Source: a virus. From it: a stretch of DNA of 64,000 nt. Shown piece after piece: positions 22,181 through 60,112 of the stretch (within the stretch, counting starts at the first letter, position 1; each line of letters opens with the position of its first letter). A model generated the notes under the pieces. It had not been told where the DNA came from, ran no database searches, and saw only the letters and a program-made list of their open reading frames with translations. The stretch lies in IMG/VR virus record IMGVR_UViG_3300027759_000045, positions 282,857-346,856 of that record, one strand, 5' to 3'. A program made the translations under genes and the position numbers.

Positions 22181-22209
22181 TTGACCAATAATTCCCGAAC
22201 TGCTATAAT
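22181..22209 (+). promoter_or_regulatory. Repeated promoter cassette, copy 1
   Basis: TTGACC, 17-bp spacer AATAATTCCCGAACTGC, TATAAT. The spacer end TGC gives an extended -10. The next ATG (22216) is 6 nt after TATAAT, so the mRNA should be leaderless. Confidence 0.9.
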
Positions 22210-22215
22210 CATAGT

Positions 22216-22449
22216 ATGAAATTAGATACAAATGAAATTTTGCAGTGGGCCGGGGCTATTTTTATAGTAGCAGGCCATAGCCTAAATGCAGTGGGTCCAA
22301 CAGCCCATCCTTACAATATCCTTACATTTTTTATTGGGACTATTTTGTTCCTGATCTGGACTGTGCGTGTTGCAAATAAACCACAGATGTTTGTAAATCT
22401 TGTAAGTGTTGCAATTGGGCTGATTGGGCTGATAAAAGCCATTGGTTGA
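22216..22449 (+). CDS. Small membrane protein, 77 aa
   Basis: Two to three hydrophobic segments (about 12-28, 36-52, 58-76) with few charges. It has no Shine-Dalgarno sequence: the ATG sits at the predicted transcription start. The stop TGA forms part of the next promoter -35 box. Function unknown. Confidence 0.75.
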   Translation: MKLDTNEILQWAGAIFIVAGHSLNAVGPTAHPYNILTFFIGTILFLIWTVRVANKPQMFVNLVSVAIGLIGLIKAIG

Positions 22450-22474
22450 CCGAATATTGCCCTTTTGCTATAAT
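22446..22474 (+). promoter_or_regulatory. Repeated promoter cassette, copy 2
   Basis: TTGACC-N17-TATAAT. The preceding stop TGA is inside TTGACC. The downstream ATAGCATAGTTTAACAAAAA leader and GGAG are the same as after copy 7 (59753). Confidence 0.9.
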
Positions 22475-22504
22475 ATAGCATAGTTTAACAAAAAGGAGCC
22501 AAAA

Positions 22505-22834
22505 ATGACTTTAAGATACGAAACAGTTGGTGAAATGATTACTCAAAACGAACAAGAAAAATCAATCCGCGTCGCGGTTGGACGAGACATGCAACGTCAA
22601 CGTGAAATTGGCATGTATGGCATCACCGAAGCTGACATGTGTGAAAACATCGAATCTTCGATCACATTCAAAACTTCGGGTCCTGCAATGATTGTGGCCA
22701 GCTTGATGAGTGATGCACAAGAGATGATGGCTTACGAAAAGCCCAATTCCCGCACTATTGAAGCTCAGCGTCAACTGCTCAATCGTGCTAAATTTGTCTT
22801 GTTTACCTACATCATGGACAAACAAAACGGTTGA
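22505..22834 (+). CDS. Hypothetical protein, 109 aa
   Basis: Soluble, helical, charged, with Met-rich patches (MCENIESSITFKTSGPAM). Carries an AAGGAG site and its own cassette promoter, and its stop lies within the next -35 box. Similar sequences are common as orphan genes in large phages in my memory. Function unknown. Confidence 0.75.
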   Translation: MTLRYETVGEMITQNEQEKSIRVAVGRDMQRQREIGMYGITEADMCENIESSITFKTSGPAMIVASLMSDAQEMMAYEKPNSRTIEAQRQLLNRAKFVLFTYIMDKQNG

Positions 22835-22859
22835 CCCGAAATTCCCAAACTGTTATAAT
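22831..22859 (+). promoter_or_regulatory. Repeated promoter cassette, copy 3
   Basis: TTGACC, spacer CGAAATTCCCAAACTGT, TATAAT. Overlaps the stop codon of the 109-aa gene. Confidence 0.9.
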
Positions 22860-22889
22860 ACTTGTATAGAAACTAAAAAGGATTCCGAA

Positions 22890-23243
22890 ATGACAGCAAT
22901 AGCAACACAGATCACAGAGCAGTTGGTACAAGATGCAACCAATGAAGCAGGCATTCAGGCACGTACAGCGGCCAAGGCATTCCACGCCAAACATGGCGAT
23001 CGTGATGCTTGTGGATTTGCTTGGGTCAATGTGTTTGGCGTTCGCTCAAACTCAAAATTGGGCAAGTGGTTGCAGGCCGCAGGCTTCCGTAAGGACTACA
23101 CAGGTGCATTGAGCCTGTGGAACCCCAGTGGCTTCCCAACACAGAGCATCAGCATTTTGGAAGCAGGTGCAGAAGCCTATGCCGAAGTACTGAAGACCAA
23201 ACTGGGCCTGACACAGGTCTACGCCGGAAGCAGATTAGATTGA
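22890..23243 (+). CDS. Conserved phage hypothetical protein, 117 aa
   Basis: Start at 22890 follows AAAAAGGA and the promoter; the longer frame would overlap the -10 box. It contains HGDRDACGFAWVNVFGVR and a C-terminal EAGAEAYAEVL...SRLD. This pattern recurs in unrelated phages as an uncharacterised protein. No catalytic site recognised. Confidence 0.8.
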   Translation: MTAIATQITEQLVQDATNEAGIQARTAAKAFHAKHGDRDACGFAWVNVFGVRSNSKLGKWLQAAGFRKDYTGALSLWNPSGFPTQSISILEAGAEAYAEVLKTKLGLTQVYAGSRLD

Positions 23244-23272
23244 TTGACCGATAATTCCCAAACTGCTATAAT
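23244..23272 (+). promoter_or_regulatory. Repeated promoter cassette, copy 4
   Basis: TTGACC directly follows the stop TGA (23241-23243). Spacer GATAATTCCCAAACTGC, then TATAAT. Confidence 0.9.
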
Positions 23273-23301
23273 ATACACATAGTAAGAAAAAAGGAAAAAA
23301 G

Positions 23302-23502
23302 ATGTCAAGTTTTGCCGAAGATGTATTTGCAATTAATCCCAATATCACAGCAGAGAATGATGTTCTTGCACTAGGGTTTGAGGTTGTAAAAAAAGCACAA
23401 GGACTCAAGTCCGCCCGGTACTATTTTTGGTACCATGAAGATTTCCCTTCAGATTTAATTAATGAATATTTTTGGTTGCAACAACAGAAAGAGGTAGCGT
23501 AA
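23302..23502 (+). CDS. Hypothetical protein, 66 aa
   Basis: Acidic N-terminus, then aromatic-rich end (ARYYFWYHEDFP). AAGGAAAAAAG precedes the ATG. Lies one base before the 158-aa gene, so both share cassette promoter 4. Function unknown. Confidence 0.7.
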   Translation: MSSFAEDVFAINPNITAENDVLALGFEVVKKAQGLKSARYYFWYHEDFPSDLINEYFWLQQQKEVA

Positions 23503-23503
23503 A

Positions 23504-23980
23504 ATGGGTACACGTTCAAGAATTGGTGTCATGCACGGCGACGTTTGTAAATCAGTCTACTGTCACTGGGACGGCTATCTGGACCACAATGGTGTAATAT
23601 TGCAAGAGCACTATTATGACAGTGCCAAAGCCAACCACCTGGTGTCACTGGGCGACATTTCTTCTTTGGCTCGCAACATTGACTTTCCAGATGGCGAGTT
23701 TCATACTTTTGGTTCTCCTATGGAAAATGTAACTGTGTTTTACGGTCGTGACCGTGATGAAGACGGCACAGATTTTGCAACAGATCATACCTTTGAAGCG
23801 TTCTTTGAACGTGCCAAAAATTGCGGTGCAGAGTGGTATTACATTATGAAAGATGGTGTATGGTACGTGGGCAATACACATGAAAATGACGCCCGGTATT
23901 ACCAAAAGTTGGTGTTGTTATTGAAGGCCTTAGTGGACGAAATGGAAGTCAGCAAGACCTGGGACTCAGTTGACCTGTAA
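23504..23980 (+). CDS. Conserved phage protein, 158 aa
   Basis: Begins GTRSRIGVMHGD and continues with YCHWDGYLDHNG, a signature I know from many phage and some bacterial hypothetical proteins. A mixed alpha/beta protein with an acidic Asp-rich loop (GRDRDEDGTDF). No function established. The next promoter -35 box lies inside its last codons. Confidence 0.8.
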   Translation: MGTRSRIGVMHGDVCKSVYCHWDGYLDHNGVILQEHYYDSAKANHLVSLGDISSLARNIDFPDGEFHTFGSPMENVTVFYGRDRDEDGTDFATDHTFEAFFERAKNCGAEWYYIMKDGVWYVGNTHENDARYYQKLVLLLKALVDEMEVSKTWDSVDL

Positions 23981-23998
23981 TTCCCAAACTGCTATAAT
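23970..23998 (+). promoter_or_regulatory. Repeated promoter cassette, copy 5
   Basis: TTGACC at 23970-23975 codes the last residues of the upstream gene, and the stop TAA lies in the spacer. Spacer TGTAATTCCCAAACTGC, TATAAT. Confidence 0.9.
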
Positions 23999-24029
23999 AC
24001 ACACATAGTAAACGAAACAGGAGCCTGAG

Positions 24030-24302
24030 ATGGATATCAAAGAAATTAACTCTGCAATTATGTTTGGTAATTTGACCAATGATCAGTTGTCCAGTGTGAT
24101 TGATGCAGTGAAGTTTGCCCGAGCGCAACTGACCCAACAAAAGAAACGCAGTTTCTCAATCGGCGACAAGGTAAAGTTTACCAGCAATCGCAATGGATTG
24201 ACATACGTTGGCAACGTTCGTAAAGTTAAAATTAAATTTGTGCTGGTTAGTACGCCAGGCGGTGTGTTCAATGTGCCAGCCAACATGTTGGAGACAGCAT
24301 GA
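24030..24302 (+). CDS. Small protein with SH3/KOW-like end, 90 aa
   Basis: N-terminal helix pair, then FSIGDKVKFTSNRNGLTYVG and a beta-rich remainder, which resembles KOW/SH3-type small barrels found in nucleic-acid-binding proteins. GGAG ribosome binding site. Overlaps the next small gene (CATGA). Confidence 0.7.
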   Translation: MDIKEINSAIMFGNLTNDQLSSVIDAVKFARAQLTQQKKRSFSIGDKVKFTSNRNGLTYVGNVRKVKIKFVLVSTPGGVFNVPANMLETA

Positions 24303-24478
24303 ACAACAAGATCTTCAGTTACAAAATGCAGATGCAACTGACCGAACAAGAACTGGCCCAGTTCCGTGCCGCGTTTGCCGAGTTACAAAATGAAGTAACA
24401 GAAATATTCTTAGAAACAGAACAGCACAATGGCTTTCAAGCCGCCAATAAAGTGATCAATCGTGTTCGGAACAGGTAA
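24299..24478 (+). CDS. Small helical protein, 59 aa
   Basis: MNNKIFSYKMQMQLTEQE... then a long charged helix (EVTEIFLETEQHNGFQAANK) and a basic end. The ATG overlaps the stop of the 90-aa gene by 4 nt, arguing that it is translated. Function unknown. Confidence 0.65.
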   Translation: MNNKIFSYKMQMQLTEQELAQFRAAFAELQNEVTEIFLETEQHNGFQAANKVINRVRNR

Positions 24479-24520
24479 GTGCCCGCACCTAGTTTCCGTC
24501 AACAAATCAGGAGAAAGACA

Positions 24521-24943
24521 ATGGGACTTGACATGTATGCATACGTGGCCGCAAAGGAAGGCCAACAACGTGAGTTTTATGAGAGTGCCGAATTTGATGA
24601 TGATACCAAAGATTTTGTTAACAAGACAGTAGAACAGCCTCGTGAGATTGCTTACTGGCGCAAGCATCCTAATCTGCATGGCTGGATGGAACAACTTTGG
24701 AAAAGTCGCAATGGCGGCAACTGTGATGGCAGCAACTTCAACGGCATTGAGTTAGAACTTACATGGGCGGATCTTGAAGCACTTGAACTGGATGTCATTG
24801 CTGGCACACTGCCCAGTACGTCAGGTTTCTTTTTTGGCAATGAAGCAGATGAACACTATCGAGAACAAGATCTCAAGTTTGTCCGCGACGCTCGTGCAGA
24901 ATTGTTTTGTGGATTGAAAGTATTTTACAATAGTAGTTGGTAA
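24521..24943 (+). CDS. Conserved phage protein, 140 aa
   Basis: Starts MGLDMYAYV after an AGGAG site and contains IAYWRKHPNLHGWME, a Trp/His pattern common to an uncharacterised phage family. An N/G-rich loop follows. Sometimes databases attach enzyme names to this family; I see no supporting catalytic motif. Confidence 0.8.
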   Translation: MGLDMYAYVAAKEGQQREFYESAEFDDDTKDFVNKTVEQPREIAYWRKHPNLHGWMEQLWKSRNGGNCDGSNFNGIELELTWADLEALELDVIAGTLPSTSGFFFGNEADEHYREQDLKFVRDARAELFCGLKVFYNSSW

Positions 24944-24949
24944 CATCAT

Positions 24950-25375
24950 ATGAAAATTGGACTTAGTTATAGCCGTTGCGTTCTAGACATTGTCGAAGGT
25001 CGTGTGGCCATTGAAGATGTGCTGGTATTAATCACTCGTACAGATTTTAATCCATGTGATGACGAACAGTGGGCAGGGATCTGGGATGGATACACCTTGG
25101 GTAGATTAAGCAATCCTGAATGGGGTCACTATGACTTTAACAGCAAGGACGACGAGGACAAGTTCCGTAGTGTGAGCTGTATGCTGTACGAAGATGGCAG
25201 AATGCATCAGCCTCGACAGTTTGGAGCTCGCCCAAGACGTCGACCCGAAATCTGGTTGGAAACAGTATTGCCTGACAGTGAGCTGGAATCTCGACCCGCT
25301 GTGAAAGATGCCTGGGATCAGTTTCAAACTCTAGCCGGTTTGACCAATGTCAAGCTAGACCGAGAATATCAATGA
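24950..25375 (+). CDS. Hypothetical protein, 141 aa
   Basis: N-terminal LSYSRCVLDIVEG segment, middle Trp-rich region and RPRRRPEIWLE. I know similar short proteins from phages as unknowns. Overlaps the next gene by 4 nt (ATGA). Confidence 0.75.
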   Translation: MKIGLSYSRCVLDIVEGRVAIEDVLVLITRTDFNPCDDEQWAGIWDGYTLGRLSNPEWGHYDFNSKDDEDKFRSVSCMLYEDGRMHQPRQFGARPRRRPEIWLETVLPDSELESRPAVKDAWDQFQTLAGLTNVKLDREYQ

Positions 25376-25836
25376 AGAAAATCTATTACGAAAAAAAAGG
25401 CCGCAGGTATGTGCCTGTGAGTGAGTACGACAGCGAGTACTTGGACAGTTTCTCTCGAGGCACACATCTTGTAATGTGCTATCCGGGCGGACAGAGTCGT
25501 CGTTTCAATATTGATCCTGCTTATGCTCCTATGATTGCCGCTGGCCGTGTTGCTGAAGAAGCTATCTGCGAGGTGATTCGCAAAGTTAGCGAACTACGTC
25601 CACAACAAACTCCTATCACTCTGGGACAAAAGAAAGCCTGGGAGAAATTGGCCAAAGAATTTGGCAGCGAACTTGCCACATTGTCTGGGCTATGCATACG
25701 TGACTGTGCCGAAGCAGGGGTCAAGGCCATGCAGGCAGAAGCTGACAAATTGATGAAGCACGAAAGTGTTCGAGTGGCATATGAGCAATTCCTATTGGTA
25801 TGTAAACTAACACAATCTGACTCAGAACGAAAATAA
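25372..25836 (+). CDS. Hypothetical protein, 154 aa
   Basis: N-terminal YYEKKGRRYVPVSEYDSEY with a beta-type GTHLVMCYPGG segment, then an Ala/Glu-rich helical C-terminal half. Starts in an ATGA overlap with the 141-aa gene, ends 4 nt before DNA ligase. Function unknown. Confidence 0.75.
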   Translation: MKKIYYEKKGRRYVPVSEYDSEYLDSFSRGTHLVMCYPGGQSRRFNIDPAYAPMIAAGRVAEEAICEVIRKVSELRPQQTPITLGQKKAWEKLAKEFGSELATLSGLCIRDCAEAGVKAMQAEADKLMKHESVRVAYEQFLLVCKLTQSDSERK

Positions 25837-25840
25837 ATAT

Positions 25841-27214
25841 ATGAATGAAACAAACTTCTCAGACCCAAGGTTTGCGGGCACAATGGTAACAGGTTGGATT
25901 CATGACCTGGAAAGCTCGGACAGTCGAATACACAAAGAAAAAACTATTGAAAAGGCATTGGTAGCCGCCCAGTTGGGCAGTTCTGATGCACAGGCCTTCT
26001 TGTTCAATTGTTATCAGGCCTACAACCCTTTTTATGTGTTTGGCATCCGACAAGTGCCCGAGACTGAGGGCTTAACTGGTCAATCAAATCCATGGCCTAA
26101 GTTTTGGGCGTTGTTGGAAAGTCTACGTACCCGTAGCGTCACAGGTAATCGAGCACGTGAGGCCATTGATGAATGTAGCCAACAGTTTGACAGTGAAGAA
26201 TGGAACAACGTATGTCGTCGTGTCATTATTAAAGACCTGCGTTGTGGGATATCAGAGAAGACACTGAACAAAGTTCTGGGCCGAACTGAATGGAAGATCC
26301 CGGTGTTCAGTTGCCAACTGGCACAGGACAGTACAGACCATCCTAAGAAACTTCGAGGCATCAAACGTCTGGAAGTCAAGCTGGATGGTGTGCGTGTGTT
26401 GGCAGTTGTGAATGGATCTGCGTGTACATTGTACAGCCGTAATGGCAAAGAGTTTGAGAACTTCCCACAGATTGCAGACTTTATTGAAGAACATCGCAAA
26501 GCATTCCAACGTGATTCTGCCTTTGGCGGACAGTTTGTGTTGGATGGTGAGATTGTGGGCAAGAATTTCCAGGACTTGATGAAACAAGCACAACGCAAAC
26601 GAGATGCCAAAACCACAGACATGATTTATCATGTATTTGATATCTTGCCACTGAGTGAGTTCCGCGATGGTTTCTGTAATCTACAGCAACACAACCGTAT
26701 CGATCTGTTGAAACGTACACAAACACACCTGCCAGAATCTGGCTGTGTGCAGATCATGCCCGGCATGGATGTGGACTTGGACACAGCCGAAGGACATGAT
26801 GTCATGCGCAGGTTTGCCGAAGCCAGTGTGGAAGAAGGCTACGAAGGTATCATGATCAAAAGCATGGATGCGCCATATGAGTGCCGACGCAGTGACTTTT
26901 GGATGAAATGGAAACCCACAATCACAGTTGATCTCAATATTGTAGGTTTTGAAGAAGGAACTGGTCGCAATCAGGGCCGGTTGGGTGCTATAATATGTGA
27001 AGGAGTTGATAATGACAGAAATATTCGTGTTAATGTTGGTAGCGGTTTGTCTGATAGCAATCGCGATGAGTATTGGGCCGCTCGCGATGAGCTTCTTGCT
27101 CGGGTGGTTGAGGTTGAAGCGGACGCAGTTACTCAAAACCAAGACGGATCATACAGTTTGAGATTTCCTCGCTTTGTGCGATTCCGTGGATTTGAACCAG
27201 GAGAGAAATTGTGA
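25841..27214 (+). CDS. ATP-dependent DNA ligase (T4 gp30-like)
   Basis: 457 aa. Lys180 in KLDGVR is the adenylated lysine (motif I). FVLDGEIVG is motif III, EGYEGIMIK motif IV and WMKWKP motif V, followed by an OB-type C-terminal domain (GSGLSD...RFPRFVRFRG). The N-terminal 150 residues match the DNA-binding region of T4-type ligases. Seals nicks in replication and repair. No strong ribosome binding site; probably translated from the upstream mRNA. Confidence 0.96.
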   Translation: MNETNFSDPRFAGTMVTGWIHDLESSDSRIHKEKTIEKALVAAQLGSSDAQAFLFNCYQAYNPFYVFGIRQVPETEGLTGQSNPWPKFWALLESLRTRSVTGNRAREAIDECSQQFDSEEWNNVCRRVIIKDLRCGISEKTLNKVLGRTEWKIPVFSCQLAQDSTDHPKKLRGIKRLEVKLDGVRVLAVVNGSACTLYSRNGKEFENFPQIADFIEEHRKAFQRDSAFGGQFVLDGEIVGKNFQDLMKQAQRKRDAKTTDMIYHVFDILPLSEFRDGFCNLQQHNRIDLLKRTQTHLPESGCVQIMPGMDVDLDTAEGHDVMRRFAEASVEEGYEGIMIKSMDAPYECRRSDFWMKWKPTITVDLNIVGFEEGTGRNQGRLGAIICEGVDNDRNIRVNVGSGLSDSNRDEYWAARDELLARVVEVEADAVTQNQDGSYSLRFPRFVRFRGFEPGEKL

Positions 27215-27230
27215 AGGTACACCAAAAGTA

Positions 27231-27259
27231 TTGACATATTAAACAGATTGTTATATACT
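27231..27259 (+). promoter_or_regulatory. Sigma70-type promoter
   Basis: TTGACA, 17-bp spacer, TATACT, directly after the ligase gene. The spacer differs from the cassette family. Serves the operon starting at 27282. Confidence 0.8.
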
Positions 27260-27281
27260 ACATGTTATTAAGGAAAACATC

Positions 27282-27494
27282 ATGGCGAAAACTAAAACAG
27301 TAAACAAAATCAGTGACAAATTGGTCAAGGTCGGCGAATCATTCTCAGTGTACATGTACGACAATGCATACATGATTGAAGTAAGTGGCCGCGACAGTGA
27401 AAACGACTACAAAACAGTCAAGCTCATGGTTCCTGCATTGGATCAATTGCAGGCCCTGATCAAAGAAACTACAGAAATGGACCGGGATGACTAA
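27282..27494 (+). CDS. Hypothetical protein, 70 aa
   Basis: Lys-rich start followed by a beta-type stretch (GESFSVYMYDNAYMIEVSG) and a helical end. AAGGAAAAC ribosome binding site. First gene of a run of small genes to 29495. Function unknown. Confidence 0.75.
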   Translation: MAKTKTVNKISDKLVKVGESFSVYMYDNAYMIEVSGRDSENDYKTVKLMVPALDQLQALIKETTEMDRDD

Positions 27495-27496
27495 TC

Positions 27497-27907
27497 ATGG
27501 CAACTTGGATATTAAAAACCCTGCACAAAAAGTCTGCTGTTGAACGACAGTTCTGGTTCAAAGCCGGCAAAACAATCATTCGCGAAGAAGGTTATCGGTG
27601 GGGCGAATTCTATTGTGAAAGCGATGATCGACCAGAGATTGACTTGGTCAATGCTGATGGATATAATCTAAGCGAAAGCGACTACGACTGGGAACTGACC
27701 AGTCTTGATGATGGCTGTTGGGCTGATTGGACTTTTCCAGAAGACATGACGGAAGAAGAGCAAGCAGAGATTGAAGCAGCCTGGGATGAAGATTACTTTG
27801 ACGGCATGGAAGAATTGGGGTGGCGCAATGATGATACAGAATACATCTTACGAGGTCCGTTGGAACTGTCTGATGAAGATGGTACAGTAATAGCACAAGG
27901 AGAATGA
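27497..27907 (+). CDS. Acidic hypothetical protein, 136 aa
   Basis: Highly acidic C-terminal two thirds (EDMTEEEQAEIEAAWDED) with many Trp. Acidity could mimic nucleic acid, but that is speculation. Ends in overlap with a small membrane gene. Confidence 0.75.
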   Translation: MATWILKTLHKKSAVERQFWFKAGKTIIREEGYRWGEFYCESDDRPEIDLVNADGYNLSESDYDWELTSLDDGCWADWTFPEDMTEEEQAEIEAAWDEDYFDGMEELGWRNDDTEYILRGPLELSDEDGTVIAQGE

Positions 27908-28086
27908 TGATGGGTAAATTTTTAGAATGGTGTAATCGTAACAGTAAATCAATTAGCCTTACAATCGGCGGGTTGAATCTACTGTCTGGGCTAAGTGCAT
28001 TGATTAATAGCAACTATGCACTTGCTATAGTGGGATTTACAATTGGTGGCGCCCTTATATTTGACGCTTATCGGGGATTCAAATGA
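27904..28086 (+). CDS. Small membrane protein, 60 aa
   Basis: Two hydrophobic segments (about 18-34 and 40-54) and a basic N-terminus. ATG repeats at the start overlap the stop of the acidic gene. The end overlaps the next gene (ATGA). Function unknown. Confidence 0.7.
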   Translation: MMMGKFLEWCNRNSKSISLTIGGLNLLSGLSALINSNYALAIVGFTIGGALIFDAYRGFK

Positions 28087-28634
28087 TCACAATGCAACAG
28101 TTTATGGAAGCTATTAATTATCGTATCTCCGAAGGCGGCGATTACGGATGGGCTTGTTACGGTTCTAATTCACATCAACTGAGTGCGTGGAACGGTGTTC
28201 ACGGTACCGGCGGCTGGAGTGCCAATATTGTGTTTAGTACCAAAAGTCAAAAGGTATACGAAGTGACAGTGTGTGACTACACACACGAACGTGCATATCG
28301 CTTGATCAATCCCAAGTACCGAGACAAGAACACAGCCGAGGCTACCCGTCGTGGTGAGTTGGGTAATCAAGCATGGGACGATGTTGACTACATTGACTTG
28401 GAGATCGAAGAAGATTTCCTGGAAAAGATGGAGGCCATTGTGGCAGGTGAGATCTACGACACTCGTGTACAAATGCAAGTGGATTTTTCGGATGAAGAGC
28501 TGTTGACATACATGAAGCTAGCACATGACCAGGACATGACATTTAATGAATTTGTTGAACAAGCATTAAGAGCCGCAATTGAGCAACACAAGTCGGACAA
28601 GTTTGCAGATGACTATGCACAAGATTTAGGATAA
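28083..28634 (+). CDS. Hypothetical protein with ribbon-helix-helix-like C-terminus, 183 aa
   Basis: N-terminal domain rich in Gly, Trp and Tyr (GDYGWACYGSNSHQLSAWNG). The last 50 residues (VQMQVDFSDEEL then TFNEFVEQALRAAIE) have the strand-helix-helix pattern of ribbon-helix-helix DNA-binding proteins. The fusion could be a phage transcription regulator. Inference from pattern only. Confidence 0.65.
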   Translation: MITMQQFMEAINYRISEGGDYGWACYGSNSHQLSAWNGVHGTGGWSANIVFSTKSQKVYEVTVCDYTHERAYRLINPKYRDKNTAEATRRGELGNQAWDDVDYIDLEIEEDFLEKMEAIVAGEIYDTRVQMQVDFSDEELLTYMKLAHDQDMTFNEFVEQALRAAIEQHKSDKFADDYAQDLG

Positions 28635-28635
28635 T

Positions 28636-29100
28636 ATGGCCGTAATAAAAAGTGTACGGTCTGATTATTATTTAAATTTTATCAAGGACGATCCTGTTCG
28701 TCCTCACTTACCTGTCTTTTGGCGTGTGGATCCCAATCGTGAAGTGTATGTGTTAGAAGATGATACTACAAATGAAGTACTGGCCGTAATCTGTGCGGCA
28801 TTCTGCAATCAAGTTCCCACAGACGAAGGCGAGTTAGAAAAGTTTTCTACTCCTACCACTCCCGATGAACCTATTGGTGAAGTCGTGGTGTTCTACACAG
28901 TATGGAGTTACCGACCTGGTGCTGGCCGAGAACTTGTTTTGGGTGCAGCCAAACTGATCAAAGATACAATGCCAGTAAAACGATTTATAACATTAAGTCC
29001 GCAAACTGAAATGGCTCGTAAATTTCATTTGCGTAACGGTGCAGTTGTATTACAAGTCAACACAACATCGGTCAATTACGAATATCTATTCAATGAATGA
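28636..29100 (+). CDS. GNAT-like acetyltransferase-fold protein, 154 aa
   Basis: VWSYRPGAGRELVLGAAKLI resembles the acetyl-CoA pyrophosphate loop of GNAT enzymes, and a C-terminal MARKFHLRNGA is typical of motif B. I recall similar proteins in T4-like phages. Substrate unknown. Overlaps the next gene by 4 nt. Confidence 0.65.
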   Translation: MAVIKSVRSDYYLNFIKDDPVRPHLPVFWRVDPNREVYVLEDDTTNEVLAVICAAFCNQVPTDEGELEKFSTPTTPDEPIGEVVVFYTVWSYRPGAGRELVLGAAKLIKDTMPVKRFITLSPQTEMARKFHLRNGAVVLQVNTTSVNYEYLFNE

Positions 29101-29495
29101 TACAAGAAACCGAACAAGAAAAACTCATACGCTATCTTAAAGGCGTTCGGTATGTGGTCATTAACACATGCCATGGTGGATATGGGCTAAGTCAAGAAGC
29201 TGAGTTTTTATATCTTAAACAATCATTGACTGACTACACAACACAAGATCGAGAAAGCCGTTTTGATACTGAACGATACGGGCCGCTAATTCTGGTCAAT
29301 GGAAAGATCTGGTACAGCAGTGATATTCCGCGTGATGATCCAGTGCTGGTGTCAGTGGTGCGTGAGCTGGGTGACCGAGCCAATGGTAATTTTGCCGAGT
29401 TAAAAATTGTAGAGGTACCTGCCTCAGTAGACTGGCAAATAGACGAATATGACGGCAGAGAATGGATCGCCGAAGTGCATCGAACATGGGACTAA
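29097..29495 (+). CDS. Hypothetical protein, 132 aa
   Basis: INTCHGGYGLSQEAEFLY and FDTERYGPLI motifs occur in an uncharacterised family in phages and bacteria. C-terminal region (VDWQIDEYDGREWI) is also conserved in my memory. No catalytic site known. Confidence 0.75.
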   Translation: MIQETEQEKLIRYLKGVRYVVINTCHGGYGLSQEAEFLYLKQSLTDYTTQDRESRFDTERYGPLILVNGKIWYSSDIPRDDPVLVSVVRELGDRANGNFAELKIVEVPASVDWQIDEYDGREWIAEVHRTWD

Positions 29496-29501
29496 AACAG
29501 A

Positions 29502-29507
29502 TAAATA
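29502..29507 (+). promoter_or_regulatory. Late-promoter-like TAAATA box
   Basis: Ends 7 nt before the ATG at 29515, with no ribosome binding site between; predicted leaderless transcript. Confidence 0.5.
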
Positions 29508-29514
29508 TTACACT

Positions 29515-31050: not shown

Positions 31051-31051
31051 C

Positions 31052-50468: not shown

Positions 50469-50537
50469 TGTTACAATAGAACATAGGGTGCTGAATAGGT
50501 CGGGCCTTATGGTAAACTCGCTTAATAGGAGAAAATT

Positions 50538-50816: not shown

Positions 50817-50838
50817 TAACCGTTTGGCCCAAAAGGCA

Positions 50839-50867
50839 TTGACCAATTAATCCAGTTCGTGTATAAT
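50839..50867 (+). promoter_or_regulatory. Sigma70-type promoter
   Basis: TTGACC, 17-bp spacer, TATAAT. The ATG at 50874 (24-codon leader frame) is 6 nt later. Confidence 0.8.
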
Positions 50868-50873
50868 ACACAC

Positions 50874-50948
50874 ATGAACTGGATTTTTCTTGGGTGTAAA
50901 CAAACCATATCGGTTAACCGGAAAAAGACACAAAAGGTATCGAAATGA
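50874..50948 (+). CDS. Candidate leader peptide, 24 aa
   Basis: MNWIFLGCKQTISVNRKKTQKVSK, starting 6 nt after TATAAT (leaderless) and ending in an ATGA overlap with the lipoprotein start. It could couple or regulate lipoprotein translation. Supported only by its placement. Confidence 0.4.
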   Translation: MNWIFLGCKQTISVNRKKTQKVSK

Positions 50949-51637: not shown

Positions 51638-51638
51638 C

Positions 51639-52709: not shown

Positions 52710-52713
52710 TTTT

Positions 52714-52732
52714 TGGCGCCAACATTGCGCCA
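52714..52732 (+). terminator. Hairpin after the exported pair
   Basis: TGGCGC...GCGCCA 6-bp GC-rich stem without T run; weak terminator or processing site. Confidence 0.35.
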
Positions 52733-52754
52733 TAAGTAGTTGTGCATCTTGACA

Positions 52755-52776
52755 GTTCAGTAGTATAATACTGAAC
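52755..52776 (+). promoter_or_regulatory. Palindromic -10 element before clpP-like gene
   Basis: GTTCAGTA-GTATAA-TACTGAAC: 8-bp perfect arms around a TATAAT box (52764-52769). Same design as 7962-7979. Likely promoter plus operator for the gene at 52801. Confidence 0.5.
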
Positions 52777-52800
52777 ACACACAAATTAACTGATTTAAAC

Positions 52801-53376
52801 ATGGCCACACAGCAAGATTTTGACACCGTTAAAGACCACACACAAGCACTAGCAGATAATGGCATGTACGTTTTCATGGGCGAAGTAGACCATGAAAGTA
52901 TAAAGCCTGCAATCGAATGGATTCTGCACGAGAACTTTGTTGTAAAGAGAAAACGCAAAGAACTGTTGTTGATGATCTGTTCAGAGGGCGGAGACATGAG
53001 TGCTGCCTTTGCCCTGATTGATGTGATGCGCAGTTCCAACATATTCATTAAGACTGTGGGCCTGGGTCAGATTGCCAGTGCTGGCCTGTTGATCTTTTTA
53101 GCAGGATCCCCGGGTCGTAGAACACTCACCCCCAACACTAGTATCATGAGTCATCAGTATGCCTGGGGTAATGATGGCAAGCATCACGAGTTAATGGCCA
53201 CAATGAAAGAGTTTGATCTCACACAAAAGCGCATGGTTGCACACTATGTGCAGTGTACAGGATTATCAGAAGAAGAAATCAAACGAACATTGTTGCCAGC
53301 ACACGATGTGTATCTCAGTGCAGAAGAAGCCTTGAAGCTTGGCATCTGCGACAACATCTCTATACTAAATCGTTAA
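52801..53376 (+). CDS. clpP: ClpP-like protease subunit A, 191 aa
   Basis: MICSEGGDMSAAF, QIASAGLLIFLAG with the Ser in the AS(A)G elbow, MSHQYAWG with the active His, and LLPAHDVYLSAEEALKLG with the Asp: complete catalytic triad of a divergent ClpP. Degrades unfolded proteins fed by ClpX or ClpA. More divergent than the paralogue at 56797, so the two may form a mixed barrel. No clear ribosome binding site. Confidence 0.9.
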   Translation: MATQQDFDTVKDHTQALADNGMYVFMGEVDHESIKPAIEWILHENFVVKRKRKELLLMICSEGGDMSAAFALIDVMRSSNIFIKTVGLGQIASAGLLIFLAGSPGRRTLTPNTSIMSHQYAWGNDGKHHELMATMKEFDLTQKRMVAHYVQCTGLSEEEIKRTLLPAHDVYLSAEEALKLGICDNISILNR

Positions 53377-54818
53377 CGCTGACGCTTGCGTCCCAGCGTT
53401 TTATCGTTACCAATCTGCACAGGTTTTGCAGGTTCTACCGTTTCTTCAACTGCACCAGTGGGACTTAATTTAAAATTAAACCCTCCGCCTCCTGGGTCTA
53501 CAGCACTGCTTTTATTTTCCATAGTAATCTTGCCATCTAGTTTGGCTGGCCACTGTGTGTTAAACACAAGAGAACCCGATTTTCTCACTAAACTTGTGTA
53601 CTGCTGAATAAAATTATAATCTAAAATTTCTAAAACAGCAGCCTGAAATTCTGGAACAGCACCGCTATTAACAATATTCTTCACAGCCTGTTTAGTAACA
53701 TAAGTTAATTTGCCGCCGTCGGTGCCGGTACTATCGACCATGCTGGTTATTTTTTTGTACTTGGGAAGATCAACTCGTTGGCTTCTTGGTGCAAGTCTAC
53801 TTGCATTTATTTCATCAACGATTGATGACGGCCATGGCAAGAAAGGTTTAAACACCGCAGGAATAGACTCTGGAATCCGTTCGTTTAACAGATTCATTGC
53901 TTGGAATGCCTGACTGATTGCAGTAGGTTTAGGTAAATTTGCATTTTGCGTCAAATCAATTAGGTCAATTGCAGTACGGTATGATTTTTTCTTTCTAAGA
54001 TGATCCGGAATACGTAAGCCACTCACTGCTGGTGATGCGCCACCGCCAGTGCCTTTACTAGAAATGTTGATTTGATGATTGGTGGTAGGGTTAGTAATCT
54101 CAGCAATACTGTCGGCCAGTGGATTATTTTCTTTACTTGGAAAATTTAAAATTAAACTGTCAAGACTTCCGCCCAGCCACTTGGTAAAATCTGCTTGATT
54201 GGGAAAATTAGTTCGACCGTAGATCAGGGCCAGCACGCCTAGATATTCTCCAGCATAGTCAACAATGGCAGCAGTTACAGGCCCTGATGCTAAAATTTCT
54301 TTAGGGATCACTGGAGTTTGCCCGGCTATGATTGCCTTGGCACAGGCAACGACTGCCTGGCCGTGCGGTGTACTATTTAGAATTGGGTTGTTGATGATGA
54401 CCCGACCAAGTTGACCTGCTTTGATCGGTTGGTCAGTAATGCCAATCTGATTGGGCTTTAAGCCAGCAGCATCTTTGCTGAGCTTGCTAGCATCATCATC
54501 GGGTTTAGCAGTGGCTCCACCGAAGTCAGCAGTTTTACTAAAGCTACTCAATGGCCAGATGTTTCCTTTGGCATCAGTGCCGGTTAATCCACCTTTAAAT
54601 TTGTTTTCTCTTGCTAGTGCTAAAAAGCGTTCAGCCTCTGAAGGGTCTAGTATAACTTCGGTTCCCTTGGGGAACCCGTTAACATCTTTGTCAAGATAAA
54701 ATGGCTTGCCATTTGCAATATGTCCAATGAAGGCATTAAACCGATCTTCATACTTGTTAATCTCACCGGCTGATAATGCCACTTCGTGAAGGTCAATTAA
54801 ATTAAGTAGGTCGCGCAT
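53373..54818 (-). CDS. Conserved T4-like phage protein, 481 aa
   Basis: Helical N-terminus (LLNLIDLHEVALSAGEINKY), Lys/Gly/Asp-rich linkers, a middle with GQLGRVIINNPILNSTPHG, and an Arg/Lys-rich C-terminus (DKTLGRKRQR). I recall this type in T4-like phages without assigned function; could be a structural or DNA-linked protein. Overlaps clpP subunit A convergently by 4 nt. Confidence 0.75.
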   Translation of the reverse strand: MRDLLNLIDLHEVALSAGEINKYEDRFNAFIGHIANGKPFYLDKDVNGFPKGTEVILDPSEAERFLALARENKFKGGLTGTDAKGNIWPLSSFSKTADFGGATAKPDDDASKLSKDAAGLKPNQIGITDQPIKAGQLGRVIINNPILNSTPHGQAVVACAKAIIAGQTPVIPKEILASGPVTAAIVDYAGEYLGVLALIYGRTNFPNQADFTKWLGGSLDSLILNFPSKENNPLADSIAEITNPTTNHQINISSKGTGGGASPAVSGLRIPDHLRKKKSYRTAIDLIDLTQNANLPKPTAISQAFQAMNLLNERIPESIPAVFKPFLPWPSSIVDEINASRLAPRSQRVDLPKYKKITSMVDSTGTDGGKLTYVTKQAVKNIVNSGAVPEFQAAVLEILDYNFIQQYTSLVRKSGSLVFNTQWPAKLDGKITMENKSSAVDPGGGGFNFKLSPTGAVEETVEPAKPVQIGNDKTLGRKRQR

Positions 54819-54862
54819 GGTGTATTCTTTTCCGTTGTTGTTTACTTATCATAAATCAATAT

Positions 54863-56137
54863 ATGAAACAAAGTAATTTATACTGTATTTTGGCCGACAA
54901 AGGACTGGGCTTGCACAATTCTGGCCGAACGTATCTGTGCTGCCACAGTAGAAAATACCTAGAAGATGCACAGGGTGAACAGATATATCTAGACACCCAC
55001 ACGTTAGAACAGGCGTGGACCAGCCCTACACGCAGAGAAATACAAGAATCTTTGGAAAACAATCAAGAGCATGCTAGTTGCCAGGCCTGCTGGGACGATG
55101 AACACGCCGGCAAAAAGTCACGCAGACAGTGGCACAACGGTATGAATCATCCTGTGACTGACCGTGATGATCAGCCGCAAATACTAGATTTAAAAATGGG
55201 CAACACCTGCAACATGAAATGCAGAACCTGTAACCCAGAAGTGTCCAGTCAATGGTATCGAGAAGATTGGGAATTGGCAGCACAGCCTGCAGAAGGCGTT
55301 TCATATTCCGAGTATCTCAAACGCTGGCGCAGAATTCCTGCCAGTTATAGTGACAACAATCAAGACCTTTGGAACACCATGAGCAAGTGGGTGCCCAACA
55401 CAGTGTACATTGACTATTACGGTGCAGAGCCCATGCTGATCAAAAAGAACTTTGATGTGTTACAGACCGCAGTGGATCAAGGCACAGCAAAAAACATAGA
55501 CTTGCATTTTAGCACCAATGGCACTGTTTGGAATGATGAGTTAGAAAACTTATTAAAACAATTTAAACAAGTTTACTTTGATTTGAGCATCGATGACATT
55601 GAAGATAGGTGTGGATATATTCGCTATTCTAGTACCTGGGATCTGGTGGCCAGCAATCTTGAACGATTCCTACAGGCACAACGCACAAACAAAAACTTTC
55701 AATTTGGCGTGTGTATCACTGTCAACAGTTTGAATGTGTATTACCTGGATGAGATATTTGATTTCTTTGCAAAGAAAGGACTAGGCTGCAACTTCAACAT
55801 GTTGCACTTGCCATATCAACTGTGCGTGAAAAGTTTGCCTGATGCTGTTAAAACCGCAATCACTGATAAATTGTCAAAGTATGTGACGGGAGATGATATT
55901 GGGCCGTGGCACCAACGCTACTGGAAAGACCATTGTGAAATTGTGTTGAACTTTTTGAATACGCCAATGGAAGGACAACAGCATCACTTCCGGGAATTTC
56001 ATCGCTATACTCGCGGACTTGATCTCAGTCGTGACCAAACATTTGAAACAGCCTTACCTGAATTTGCAGAGTTAATCAAGCCGTGGTTTGCACCGCTTGA
56101 TCAGTTGCTTGTGGTTGATTCTCCAGTTTCAAAGTGA
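54863..56137 (+). CDS. Radical SAM protein with N-terminal twitch-like domain
   Basis: 424 aa. N-terminal Cys8, CC26-27 and Cys73-x2-Cys76. Core motif C116-x3-C120-x2-C123 (CNMKCRTC). DYYGAEPMLIKKN replaces the usual GGEP by YGAEP. Auxiliary domain precedes the core. A TAAATC box lies 5 nt before the ATG. Overlaps the convergent oxygenase-like gene by 62 nt. Confidence 0.88.
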   Translation: MKQSNLYCILADKGLGLHNSGRTYLCCHSRKYLEDAQGEQIYLDTHTLEQAWTSPTRREIQESLENNQEHASCQACWDDEHAGKKSRRQWHNGMNHPVTDRDDQPQILDLKMGNTCNMKCRTCNPEVSSQWYREDWELAAQPAEGVSYSEYLKRWRRIPASYSDNNQDLWNTMSKWVPNTVYIDYYGAEPMLIKKNFDVLQTAVDQGTAKNIDLHFSTNGTVWNDELENLLKQFKQVYFDLSIDDIEDRCGYIRYSSTWDLVASNLERFLQAQRTNKNFQFGVCITVNSLNVYYLDEIFDFFAKKGLGCNFNMLHLPYQLCVKSLPDAVKTAITDKLSKYVTGDDIGPWHQRYWKDHCEIVLNFLNTPMEGQQHHFREFHRYTRGLDLSRDQTFETALPEFAELIKPWFAPLDQLLVVDSPVSK

Positions 56138-56735
56138 GTCCCAACAAGATACTGTAGCGTGTTTTGTCAGTGCGATTCCATCCGTCGTGCCAGGTGTTCC
56201 AGTCGTTGCTGTGTATCCATCCGGCGCCGTAACCAGTGGCAACACGACGCGGATTGTGTCGATCCGGATGATCATAAAAACAACTGGCTGAGTCCGGATC
56301 GTCACCCTCGGCCAGGTATATCATACCGGTGCCCACCAATCGTCGCATGTCGCAGTGAATACCGTTTTCAAAGCCCGGCAAGTCTTTGGTAAATTCTGCA
56401 TGCAGTTCAGTATTTGTACTCATGCGCCAAGGATACATCTGCCAGTTGACTTGCAGTATAGCCTTGTCTCGATACAGACATTCAATAACGTAATCTTTTA
56501 CAGAATCCTGCCTGAAGAATTGAGAAATTTGTTGCAACTTAGGGCTACGAGGACGATGTACTTTAAACCGTTTGCCGGTCCATTCGTCATGTTTAACAGC
56601 AGTTTCGGCTCCGTATGGTTTCCAGTCTTCCTGCTCAAAGTCAGCTATTAATTCTTCTCGGCTCCATGGAAAGGTTGTCTGAACTCGAGAGTACGCATAG
56701 TCTTCTGGAAAAATTTCAAATTTAATGTCTTGCAT
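56076..56735 (-). CDS. 2-oxoglutarate-oxygenase-like protein, 219 aa
   Basis: Start at 56735 (MQDIKFEIFPED), chosen over a longer frame that would cross the clpP leader and start. GIHCDMRRL supplies His-x-Asp and NDWNTWHDGWNR with RYSILLG the distal His and Arg: iron and 2-oxoglutarate pattern. Convergent overlap of 62 nt with the radical SAM gene. Substrate unknown. Confidence 0.7.
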   Translation of the reverse strand: MQDIKFEIFPEDYAYSRVQTTFPWSREELIADFEQEDWKPYGAETAVKHDEWTGKRFKVHRPRSPKLQQISQFFRQDSVKDYVIECLYRDKAILQVNWQMYPWRMSTNTELHAEFTKDLPGFENGIHCDMRRLVGTGMIYLAEGDDPDSASCFYDHPDRHNPRRVATGYGAGWIHSNDWNTWHDGWNRTDKTRYSILLGLTLKLENQPQATDQAVQTTA

Positions 56736-56796
56736 ATGATCACTTTGTGTGTTATACTTACTTATATTACACACCCATGCATAACAAGGAAATTCC

Positions 56797-57420
56797 ATGC
56801 CTAATTTAGTACCTATTGTTCTAGAACAAACTGCCAAAGGCGAACGTTCATATGACATCTACAGTCGACTGCTACGTGACCGTGTGATCATGCTGGACAC
56901 AGAAGTCAGCGAACATTCAGCCAGTTTAATTGTGGCACAGATGCTGTTCTTGGAAAGCGAAAATCCTGACAAGGATATCTCATTGTACATCAATTCACCT
57001 GGCGGTGCTGTCACAGCCGGCCTGGCCATTTACGATACCATGCAGTTTATCAAATGCGATGTACAGACCATTGTGCTGGGCCAGGCTGCAAGTATGGGAT
57101 CCATGTTGGCACAAGCAGGTGCCGCAGGTAAACGTATGGTGCTACCCGAAGCACGTACAATGATACACCGTGTGAGTTCTGGCACACCGGGCACACGTGG
57201 TTCAGTTCATGTGCAGGATCTGCAGTTCGAAGATTCAAAACGTGCGTTTGAAGAAAGTGTACGAATAAATAAACGTCTTACCGAGCTGTACGTCAAGCAC
57301 AACACCGCCAGCAAGACCTATGAAGAACTGTATGAAACTATGAAGTTTGATACATTCTTAAGCGCACAGCAAGCAGTTGATTTTGGACTTGCTGATAAAA
57401 TTATTGAAAAACGAGTTTAA
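56797..57420 (+). CDS. clpP: ClpP protease subunit B, 207 aa
   Basis: Ser99 (GQAASMGS), His124 (TMIHRVSS) and Asp185 (KFDTFLSA), with SPGGAVTAG substrate-binding strand, make a complete triad. The His-Asp spacing is about 12 residues longer than in E. coli ClpP, from an inserted [12 protein letters not shown]-like loop that I also recall in cyanophage ClpPs. AAGGAAA ribosome binding site. Partner of ClpX in this phage. Confidence 0.96.
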
Positions 57421-58718
57421 TGAGTTTCGAGCAAACATTCTGCGCTAGTCCGTGGTTGCATATGAGGATCACTAACTCTGGCACCTACGAACCCTGCAGA
57501 TGGATGGCTCACACCAACAGCACTCGAGTCAGCATTGATCGCAGTATACAAACAGTATCTCCGTTAACATACTTTCAACAGCACATGGCTCCGTTGCGAG
57601 CAGAATTACTCGAAGGCAACGCACCGGCAATGTGCAATGACTGCTTGGTTATGGAACAGCATGGCAAGCCAAGTGGGCGTCAGCGACAGTTGCTCAAGGT
57701 TGGAATACAAGACGAGTATTTTGAAAAAAGACTGGCCAGTTCTCCGTTAAAGACTGCATTTGATTACAGCAACAATAATGCCGGCCATACCGACCGCACA
57801 GTAACAGACTGGCAAATAGACCTGGGTAATTACTGCAATGGTGCTTGTGTGTTTTGTAATCCGGAGAGTTCAAGCAGTTTAGCCACGGAATTTAAAAAGC
57901 TAGGCTTGATTGAACAAGCGCCGACATCTGCCTGGTGTGACGATCCTGTGTTGTTGGAAAAGTTTATCAACGACCTGTCTCAAACTCCTAATCTACACTA
58001 CTTACACTTCCTTGGCGGCGAAACAGTGATCACTCCAGGATTTAAAAAGATACTGGCAGCATTGATTACCTCCGGTCTAGCAAAACAAATAACAATTGGC
58101 TTTACCACTAATCTCACTGTGTGGTCTGACTCAGTGGTTGAACTATTAATGCAGTTTCACCAAGTCAATCTGGGAATGAGCATAGAAACACTAACGCCTG
58201 TTAATGACTATGTAAGATACCCCAGCCAAATTGGATTGGTACAGCAGACATTGGATCGTTGGGTACAACTAGGACAGAAACAAAATTGGTTAATGCAGTT
58301 ACGCATTACTCCTACGTGTCTAACTGTACACGAATTACACACTGTGTATGATTATGCTTGGCAGAATATGATTGCTGTTGAAAGTTGTAACTTTATCAAT
58401 CGTCCAGAAGTAATGCGCATTGGTGTATTGCCAAAATATCAACGTGATCAAGCTGTACACGTTTTGAAAACTTGGATTGATCAACATCCAATTGCTGACC
58501 ATGCACAGATTATCAACACACGAGATCCAAACATTGCTAGAGAACAAATTATTCAAGACGCCACAAGTTATTTGACCTATCTCGAATCAGCTGTAGATGA
58601 AAGCGCAAGACTACCGGACCTGATTGCGTATCTTAAAAGATTAGAAGGCAATCGTGGCAATAGCATTTTAACTTATATTCCTCAATATGAAAACCTATTC
58701 AGATCTGCAGGATATTGA
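57420..58718 (+). CDS. Radical SAM protein with N-terminal twitch-like domain
   Basis: 432 aa. N-terminal FCASPW (Cys8), PC26, Cys72-x2-Cys75. Core C139-x3-C143-x2-C146 (CNGACVFC), then LGGETVITPG. Starts in a TAATG overlap with the clpP subunit B stop, so probably co-translated, a notable coupling. Substrate unknown. Confidence 0.9.
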   Translation: MSFEQTFCASPWLHMRITNSGTYEPCRWMAHTNSTRVSIDRSIQTVSPLTYFQQHMAPLRAELLEGNAPAMCNDCLVMEQHGKPSGRQRQLLKVGIQDEYFEKRLASSPLKTAFDYSNNNAGHTDRTVTDWQIDLGNYCNGACVFCNPESSSSLATEFKKLGLIEQAPTSAWCDDPVLLEKFINDLSQTPNLHYLHFLGGETVITPGFKKILAALITSGLAKQITIGFTTNLTVWSDSVVELLMQFHQVNLGMSIETLTPVNDYVRYPSQIGLVQQTLDRWVQLGQKQNWLMQLRITPTCLTVHELHTVYDYAWQNMIAVESCNFINRPEVMRIGVLPKYQRDQAVHVLKTWIDQHPIADHAQIINTRDPNIAREQIIQDATSYLTYLESAVDESARLPDLIAYLKRLEGNRGNSILTYIPQYENLFRSAGY

Positions 58719-59112
58719 TCAATCGATCAATGTTAAAATTAACTTGCGTCCTGTTGGTATGCCGAATATCAGTGTGTCAATCAATCAAACAATGTTTGAA
58801 TATACTGTATTATTAAATCCTGTTGTGTTGGAATATCGGGTAGGATTATTGGATAATATCAATATTATTATAAAATTATATGATAAAGAATATGATATCA
58901 ATAACAAAACTGCGGTAATAATTGATAATATTGTTATTGATAATATTGATATTGTTCCTAAGTTTGATTATCTGGCAGAGTACATTAATGATCACAACAA
59001 TAACAATCCCACCAGTTACTTGGGATTCAATGGCACATGGCAATTGAATATCGATCAGCCATTTTATCATTGGTTACACAAACACACTGGCCAAGGTTGG
59101 CTTTTAACATAA
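58687..59112 (+). CDS. Hypothetical protein, 141 aa, coupled to radical SAM gene
   Basis: Overlaps the radical SAM gene by 32 nt. Asn/Ile-rich beta protein (NINIIIKLYDKEYDINN, IDNIVIDNIDIV) ending with Trp/His-rich YHWLHKHTGQGW. AT-rich codons, unlike its neighbours. Possibly the modification substrate or a partner of the radical SAM enzyme; speculation. Confidence 0.65.
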   Translation: MKTYSDLQDIDQSINVKINLRPVGMPNISVSINQTMFEYTVLLNPVVLEYRVGLLDNINIIIKLYDKEYDINNKTAVIIDNIVIDNIDIVPKFDYLAEYINDHNNNNPTSYLGFNGTWQLNIDQPFYHWLHKHTGQGWLLT

Positions 59113-59160
59113 CAAGTATATGATAATAGATAATCGATAATATTATCTATAATCCCCCAA

Positions 59161-59188
59161 GGTAATACTCAAGTATTACCTTTTTTTT
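59161..59188 (+). terminator. Rho-independent terminator
   Basis: GGTAATACT-ca-AGTATTACC followed by eight T. Classical form. Confidence 0.95.
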
Positions 59189-59210
59189 GTGGTTTTTTTA
59201 CCACAAAAAA
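59183..59210 (-). terminator. Second hairpin facing the minus strand
   Basis: TTTTTTGTGG...CCACAAAAAA stem overlapping the first T run; would end minus-strand transcription. Confidence 0.6.
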
Positions 59211-59214
59211 CTGT

Positions 59215-59243
59215 TTGACCAGAAATTCTCGATTTGCTATAAT
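59215..59243 (+). promoter_or_regulatory. Repeated promoter cassette, copy 6
   Basis: TTGACC, spacer AGAAATTCTCGATTTGC, TATAAT. The ATG at 59250 follows by 6 nt: leaderless. Confidence 0.9.
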
Positions 59244-59249
59244 ACTTGT

Positions 59250-59588
59250 ATGGAACTTAAAAAGCAATCACGTAAAAAACGCACCGACCGTACTCACATC
59301 ATTTATATGATTGAAAGCGGCACAGACTTCTACATTGGCGTCACTGCCAAGACAATGAGCACTGTGAAGAAGAGCGTGTTGGTTCGTTGCAACAAGCACA
59401 TGTACCGCATGCGCTCGGAAGACAAATCATGGATGCTGTATGAGACCATGCGTGAACGTGGTACTGACGCATTCACTGTTCGTGTTGTGGCTGTGGTTCG
59501 TGGCAAAGCAGAAGCACACACTGTTGAACGTGACATGATCCGTACTATGAAACCTAACCTTAACACTGATACTCGTGGTGTTGCGTAA
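59250..59588 (+). CDS. Small GIY-YIG-type protein, 112 aa
   Basis: THIIYMIESGTDFYIGVTAKT is a GIY-YIG nuclease core (Y...YIG), with a basic N-terminus and a later VERDMIRTMKPNLNTDTRG carrying the conserved Glu and Asn/Thr. Leaderless start 6 nt after the -10 box. No NUMOD repeats, so not the 34277 type. Possibly a DNA-cutting defence or processing enzyme; role unknown. Confidence 0.8.
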   Translation: MELKKQSRKKRTDRTHIIYMIESGTDFYIGVTAKTMSTVKKSVLVRCNKHMYRMRSEDKSWMLYETMRERGTDAFTVRVVAVVRGKAEAHTVERDMIRTMKPNLNTDTRGVA

Positions 59589-59606
59589 AAGCAACAGAAA
59601 GAACAT

Positions 59607-59747
59607 ATGAAACGGTTTATTATTTCTGCAATTTTAATGGGCGTTGTCACAGTGGCATCTGCTCAAAAACCCCGGTGTATGAAATGGACTTGGTATAACA
59701 TTGACGGTGTTCAGCACACGGTATGCCTGCTGTGGGCCAATCGTTAA
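59607..59747 (+). CDS. Small exported protein, 46 aa
   Basis: Signal peptide (FIISAILMGVVTVASAQ) then about 25 residues with two Cys (PRCMKW, TVCLLW), which could form a disulfide. AGAAAG weak ribosome binding site. Function unknown. Confidence 0.6.
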   Translation: MKRFIISAILMGVVTVASAQKPRCMKWTWYNIDGVQHTVCLLWANR

Positions 59748-59752
59748 AACGG

Positions 59753-59781
59753 TTGACCCGAAATTGCCAATTTGCTATAAT
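59753..59781 (+). promoter_or_regulatory. Repeated promoter cassette, copy 7
   Basis: TTGACC, spacer CGAAATTGCCAATTTGC, TATAAT. The next 20 nt match those after copy 2. Confidence 0.9.
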
Positions 59782-59811
59782 ATAGCATAGTTTAACAAAA
59801 AGGAATAGAAA

Positions 59812-60087
59812 ATGAAAGCACTTACTGCATACATTGATCGTCAAAACAAATACCAGGCCCTGTTCCGAGGCCAACGTACAGAACCCCTGTACGAAGTCAC
59901 CACTGCCGCAGGCCGCAAGCGTGTGGCAGACATGATTGATTGCGCACTGAGCCCTGAAAATCTTTCATGTGATGGCGAACTGCCTCGTGCAGAAGTTAAC
60001 CGTCGCTATCGTGAACTCACAGCGGCCGCAAAGGATCTGATCAAGTTGGATCCTACTATGGCTCAACACATGTACGAATTTGGTTGA
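59812..60087 (+). CDS. Hypothetical protein, 91 aa
   Basis: Charged helical protein (ALTAYIDRQNKYQALFRG, VNRRYRELTAAAKDLI) with two Cys in the middle. AAAAGGAA ribosome binding site. Its stop TGA lies in the -35 box of promoter copy 8. Function unknown. Confidence 0.75.
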   Translation: MKALTAYIDRQNKYQALFRGQRTEPLYEVTTAAGRKRVADMIDCALSPENLSCDGELPRAEVNRRYRELTAAAKDLIKLDPTMAQHMYEFG

Positions 60088-60112
60088 CCCGAAATTGCTG
60101 ATTTGCTATAAT
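60084..60112 (+). promoter_or_regulatory. Repeated promoter cassette, copy 8
   Basis: TTGACC contains the stop TGA of the previous gene. Spacer CGAAATTGCTGATTTGC, TATAAT, then a leader with AAGGAG. Confidence 0.9.

Follow-up and report, generated by a model that had tools for sequence, protein, structure and literature searches.

Repeated promoter-like element at small-gene borders in a clade of T4-superfamily jumbo phages and its probable part in gene shuffling

Phage identity and genes of the two zones

The window, i.e., the whole analysed stretch of 64,000 nucleotides, corresponds to bases 282857-346856 and forms the end of a 347-kb record (G000) of a T4-superfamily jumbo phage. The record encodes T4-type gp23 (E=8e-98), T4-type gp20 (Portal_T4, E=3.5e-102), and a RecA-family protein. 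By portal protein, the nearest isolates were the jumbo phages PA5oct, Atu_ph07, and Erwinia pEa_SNUABM_49, at 49-56% over most of the portal. Alignments of four long records covered roughly a quarter to half of each, with nucleotide identities of about 70-72%, and megablast of window positions 40000-64000 against GenBank phages gave no match. The compared records are metagenome contigs, and we read the phages as freshwater phages from the kind of samples that yield such contigs.

The repeated element, abbreviated P, was located in two zones with the following genes:

21773..22174, + strand: gene A, SprT/metallopeptidase-like (weak DUF6782 match, HELVH motif)
22216..22449, + strand: gene B, 77-aa membrane-type protein (DUF6552, borderline)
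22505..22834, + strand: gene C, 109 aa, open reading frame with no assigned function
22890..23243, + strand: gene D, 117 aa, open reading frame with no assigned function
23302..23502, + strand: gene E, 66 aa, open reading frame with no assigned function
23504..23980, + strand: gene F, 158 aa, open reading frame with no assigned function
24030..24302, + strand: gene G, 90 aa, open reading frame with no assigned function
59250..59588, + strand: gene r, GIY-YIG-like, 112 aa (weak match, E 0.09)
59812..60087, + strand: gene t, 91 aa; with copies 7 and 8 it makes a unit located between D and E in record G001
60143..60508, + strand: gene u, 121 aa, open reading frame with no assigned function

The order is A-P-B-P-C-P-D-P-E-F-P-G and, about 36 kb further, P-r-P-t-P-u. 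Directly upstream of the first promoter zone, positions 18614-20677 encode a 687-aa protein, which had no PHROG match and was found in many relatives. This gene is a fixed border of the variable zone.

Copies of the element in the window

The first-pass annotation listed eight copies of TTGACC-N17-TATAAT, and a pattern scan of the window found copies 1-8 exactly at every listed coordinate. The scan also found a ninth exact match that had been overlooked (TTGACCAATTAATCCAGTTCGTGTATAAT) and a one-mismatch variant with CGG just before it. The copies and the associated features were as follows:

21716..21744, + strand: variant copy, TTGACA; precedes the SprT-like gene, conserved in relatives
22181..22209, + strand: copy 1, TTGACCAATAATTCCCGAACTGCTATAAT; just past the stop of the SprT-like ORF
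22446..22474, + strand: copy 2; holds the TGA stop of 22216-22449
22831..22859, + strand: copy 3; holds the TGA stop of 22505-22834
23244..23272, + strand: copy 4; abuts the TGA stop of 22890-23243; its left part is joined to the gene-24030 leader in relative L148
23970..23998, + strand: copy 5; gene 23504-23980 reads GTT GAC CTG TAA through the -35 into the spacer
50839..50867, + strand: ninth exact box match, divergent spacer
59183..59210, + strand: terminator-like stem-loop directly 5' of copy 6 (-12.1 kcal/mol, z -3.4)
59215..59243, + strand: copy 6, exact match
59753..59781, + strand: copy 7; left edge of the unit common to the window and G001 234448-234831
60084..60112, + strand: copy 8; holds the TGA stop of 59812-60087; right edge of the G001-shared unit

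With two or fewer mismatches, 23 matches were found in the window versus 6.9 +/- 2.6 in shuffles, and no shuffle reached 23. The annotated relation of the copies to upstream stop codons held throughout, i.e., TGA inside TTGACC in copies 2, 3, and 8 (genes ending at 22449, 22834, and 60087), a stop abutting copy 4 (gene ending at 23243), and a coding -35 in copy 5, where the gene continues through and stops at the spacer TAA at 23978-23980. Copies 2 and 7 were said to be alike for 20 nt beyond TATAAT, and 23 nt proved to be common to both (ATAGCATAGTTTAACAAAAAGGA).

Consensus, copy number and strand

The conserved unit begins with GGTTGACC and runs through the spacer and the extended -10 to a leader and ribosome site. 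In a matrix made from the copies, conservation extended from (C/T)GG before TTGACC, via the spacer and TATAATA, into a leader that contains CATAGTAA and AAAGGAG. The spacer is conserved as first described, but the pooled copies fit nnWAATTCCCAATTTGC better than the proposed xxAAATTCCCAAACTGC. In the pooled copies, the conserved block begins at the GG immediately 5' of TTGACC. TTGAC, TGC, and TATAAT are conserved as in sigma-70 extended -10 promoters, and the spacing is 17 bp in 166/189 TTGAC/TATAAT pairs over the spacings counted. The downstream start lies at a median of 31 nt from the element, mostly in register.

The record (346,856 b) contains 18 exact copies on the forward strand, none on the reverse strand, and none of a backward-pattern control. 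Nine further virus records (99-349 kb) contain 7-23 exact copies each, on one strand per record, with almost no match to the backward pattern. Together, 155 exact matches were counted in the ten records (18 in G000 and 137 in the other nine), among which G004/G007 and G002/G005 are near-duplicates at the element sites. A 33-nt matrix applied to six related records found 166 forward and 0 reverse sites above 14 bits, and a permuted-matrix control gave about 0.2 in three records. The same promoter was present in at least 119 IMG/VR stretches, so the further copies that the first-pass annotation had called for in related genomes exist.

The tested element pattern had 0 exact matches in GTDB genomes, and a host promoter type was rejected on this basis. 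In GenBank phages, the one match was a weak Listeria A511-like stretch (E 0.03), which was taken as chance. The T4 late-promoter motif TATAAATA had few sites, 11 before plus-strand and 10 before minus-strand genes, which are too few to argue from.

Many near-identical copies adjoin unrelated genes, as would be the case for a MITE-like small mobile insertion copied from place to place. However, the element has no supported dyad or inverted ends, all copies share a single orientation on one strand per record and keep mostly in register with the downstream start, and whole gene units travel with the element. A mobile insertion is therefore very improbable.

Another explanation is that the spacer is conserved as an operator, with a phage or host regulator binding inside the promoter. 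Spacer identity between non-homologous contexts was 0.54-0.72, compared with about 0.26 in the flanks, which agrees with such a site. However, the spacer dyad AAATT-CCC-AATTT showed no covariation in 211 collapsed sequences and was rejected as an operator for this reason. At orthologous junctions, moreover, positions 12-17 were at 0.78, only slightly above the flanking gene ends (about 0.72). Conservation as an operator is improbable, if less so than a mobile insertion.

Two observations were made outside the window. At G000 105496-105622 (L006 5996-6122), two tandem element copies with hairpins lie inside a tRNA array of ten tRNA matches over about 2.7 kb; the element is thus also located among RNA genes. 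The minus strand at G000 160730-175297 is a single 4855-codon open frame, and element copies are absent from that strand.

Stop codons and C-termini supplied by the element

Members of 59 gene families have a C-terminus that is written by the element. Among the upstream plus-strand genes in six records, the TGA within TTGACC is the exact stop of 40/149 and the TAA of nnTAATTCCC that of 12/149, whereas any other offset was used by at most 4. Because these stop positions recur across six records, the stop inside the element is a general feature, beyond a chance arrangement in the window. In 37/59 of the families so affected, other members do not end in the element. Proteins ending at the TGA have C-terminal Gly in 42/77 cases, and those ending at the spacer TAA finish with VDQ, VDH, VDL, LDQ, and similar residues. 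The gene t product ends in YEFG with P and in YEFSE in some members without it. The gene C product ends in NG with P and mostly in TA without it, and that of gene r ends in VDQ with P in the other frame. In the searchable literature, no description of promoter-written C-termini was found.

The element may have been selected as a universal gene joint, which would supply the preceding gene with a stop, the following gene with a promoter and ribosome site, and exchange with the necessary homology. This is a tentative reading, to which we give somewhat less than even odds. With stop, promoter, and homology in one joint, promoter-to-promoter recombination would assemble early gene arrays, similar to array assembly in an integron with attC sites but without an integrase. 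Joining a gene to the element would then rewrite its C-terminus, i.e., to ...G-stop or to ...VDQ/VDL-stop. Promoter-written C-termini are a simple twist on the cassette theme and are open to test.

Gene shuffling at the element

Gene order around the element differs among relatives, as the first-pass annotation had led one to expect; the partners change and the element stays. The orders were B-P-P-C-P-D-P-t-P-E-F in G001, A-P-D-P-q23 in G003, m1-P-B-P-q23 and t-P-F in G004, and B-P-t and G-P-D in G008. In L139, an extra P and a 33-codon gene lie between B and C, and this 33-codon gene also has its stop in the TGA of the P that follows. The order in L148 is q23-...-P-D-P-G, i.e., D-P-G where the window has D-P-E-F-P-G.

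A first synteny test on all loci was biased for element retention, since the loci had been chosen for holding the element. The test was therefore repeated on six long records and within zones. In ortholog comparisons among the six records, small-gene junctions with the element were broken at 0.90 (n=212) and those without it at 0.51 (n=1217), pair counts that are not independent because lineages are shared. Per upstream family and with all gene sizes, the values were 0.89 versus 0.57 (p=2.5e-8). When the neighbour of a small gene had changed in the six records, the other genome had the element in 0.65 of cases for junctions with the element versus 0.10 for junctions without it. In a zone-matched control of non-element junctions located no more than 1.5 kb from an element, 0.70 were broken versus 0.90 (p=0.005 per family). 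The difference remains but is less strong, and the element copies lie in variable accessory zones.

Homologous blocks were bounded by the element. Among 1250 same-strand HSPs, the start lay inside an element in both genomes in 42 and the end in 20, where 7.7 were expected even with positions fully linked, and this reach into the element is partly due to the element's own conservation. One of these blocks is the window unit 59753-60136, whose match to G001 234448-234831 extends from position 0 of an element to +52 of the following copy. Averaged over 224 and 393 pairs, the loss or gain of similarity fell within about -6 to +54 relative to the element; similarity was lost by about +54 in pairs with only the upstream gene in common and gained from about +6 in pairs with only the downstream gene in common. 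The element between D and G in L148 is a hybrid, identical to the D-side copy of the window through TATAATA and followed by the G-side leader and gene, which come after F in the window. Homologous blocks bounded by the element, and a crossover inside it in one relative, support the portable gene-plus-promoter cassette that had been suggested.

These findings are best explained by a family-specific promoter element that is repeated in a clade of T4-superfamily jumbo phages and at which recombination between copies moves promoter-gene units; we give this a probability of roughly 0.8. The element would be a strong sigma-70-type promoter, made up of GG-TTGACC-N17 and an extended -10 (TGC-TATAAT), with a conserved leader and ribosome site downstream, and host RNA polymerase most likely transcribes from it early. 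As all copies point the same way and have about 30-55 nt in common, homologous recombination can take place between them. Such events, within one genome or between co-infecting phages, would remove, add, or exchange whole promoter-gene units, each of which would extend from one element into the next. The left end of the element would often bring the stop of the upstream gene, i.e., TGA in TTGACC or TAA in the spacer. Because stop and promoter are carried together, a newly joined unit would end in frame, with a working promoter after it. The activity of the promoter, its early timing, and a causal role of recombination at the element in shuffling are what we infer from the pattern of copies and junctions.

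The copies could instead be ordinary early promoters with a family consensus. Illegitimate recombination would then join genes, only junctions with a working promoter would survive, and the element would mark the breakpoints and not cause them. T4 early promoters, which are host-polymerase promoters with an extended conserved sequence and an extended -10, are known to us as an example of such an extended consensus, and their consensus differs from that of the element here. The accessory zones are also variable even without the element, as the value of 0.70 indicates. However, element junctions were broken more often than neighbouring junctions, and the hybrid copy, with its left half from one promoter and its right half from another, and the position-wise similarity profile point to crossovers inside the element. 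We consider this explanation unlikely, although somewhat more probable than conservation as an operator.

Recombination that moves promoter-gene units bears on the old question of how phages gain and lose many small host-takeover genes. In this large family of uncultured jumbo phages, the sequence itself shows the units, where they are bordered, and the point of recombination. Metagenomes can also be searched with the 29-nt signature for early-type accessory genes, the majority of which have no known function.

Comparison with known promoter cassettes

PeSL (promoter early stem-loop) cassettes of T4-type phages were reportedly described by Arbiol et al. in 2010 and Comeau et al. in 2014. According to two sources, PeSL is a terminator hairpin joined to an early promoter, which acts as a mobile regulatory cassette in gene shuffling of T4-type phages (PMC4503421, PMC3950731). 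As the cassettes are described there as doing the same, the cassette idea is not new in kind.

The element could belong to the PeSL family proper, a composite of terminator stem-loop and early promoter that mediates shuffling. T4-type gp20 and gp23 are present, and the modular shuffling resembles the PeSL descriptions in those papers (PMC4503421, PMC3950731). A repeated sigma-70-type, early-like promoter of predicted activity, dense in small-gene shuffling zones of T4-superfamily phages, is also common to both. A hairpin (z<-2) lies just upstream of 41% of the copies that do not overlap a gene, versus 21% of control intergenic sites, and copy 6 of the window is one of the copies preceded by a terminator-like hairpin. 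However, in the six records a hairpin accompanies only 3% of the copies overlapping or abutting a gene end, and 7/8 window copies have none, so that a stem-loop is joined to the promoter in only 1/8 (copy 6). Most window copies overlap or abut the upstream stop codon instead. As far as these descriptions of PeSL go, the element also differs in having its own long consensus and in occurring in uncultured jumbo phages. The system works like PeSL shuffling, although most window copies are not the composite of stem-loop and promoter. Membership in the PeSL family proper is a serious possibility, somewhat short of even and the most probable of the alternatives considered here.

In the halovirus HGTV-1, PeSL-like motifs precede most ORFs of one genome side and were proposed to permit shuffling (PMC3950731). 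A conserved promoter-like motif and a proposed shuffling role are thus alike, but HGTV-1 is an archaeal virus and its motif has a TATA-like region and an inverted repeat, unlike the element here. Literature searches on conserved promoter motifs in freshwater jumbo phages and on recombination at conserved promoters found nothing relevant.

Erwinia phage pEa_SNUABM_49 (MW879344.1) has strand-biased TTGAC-N18-TATAAT-like sites, 79 forward versus 15 reverse, but the sites listed are without the AATTCCC spacer. These are perhaps an equivalent promoter family in an isolated jumbo phage. Several of the sites have a common TTTTGnTATAGT-like end.
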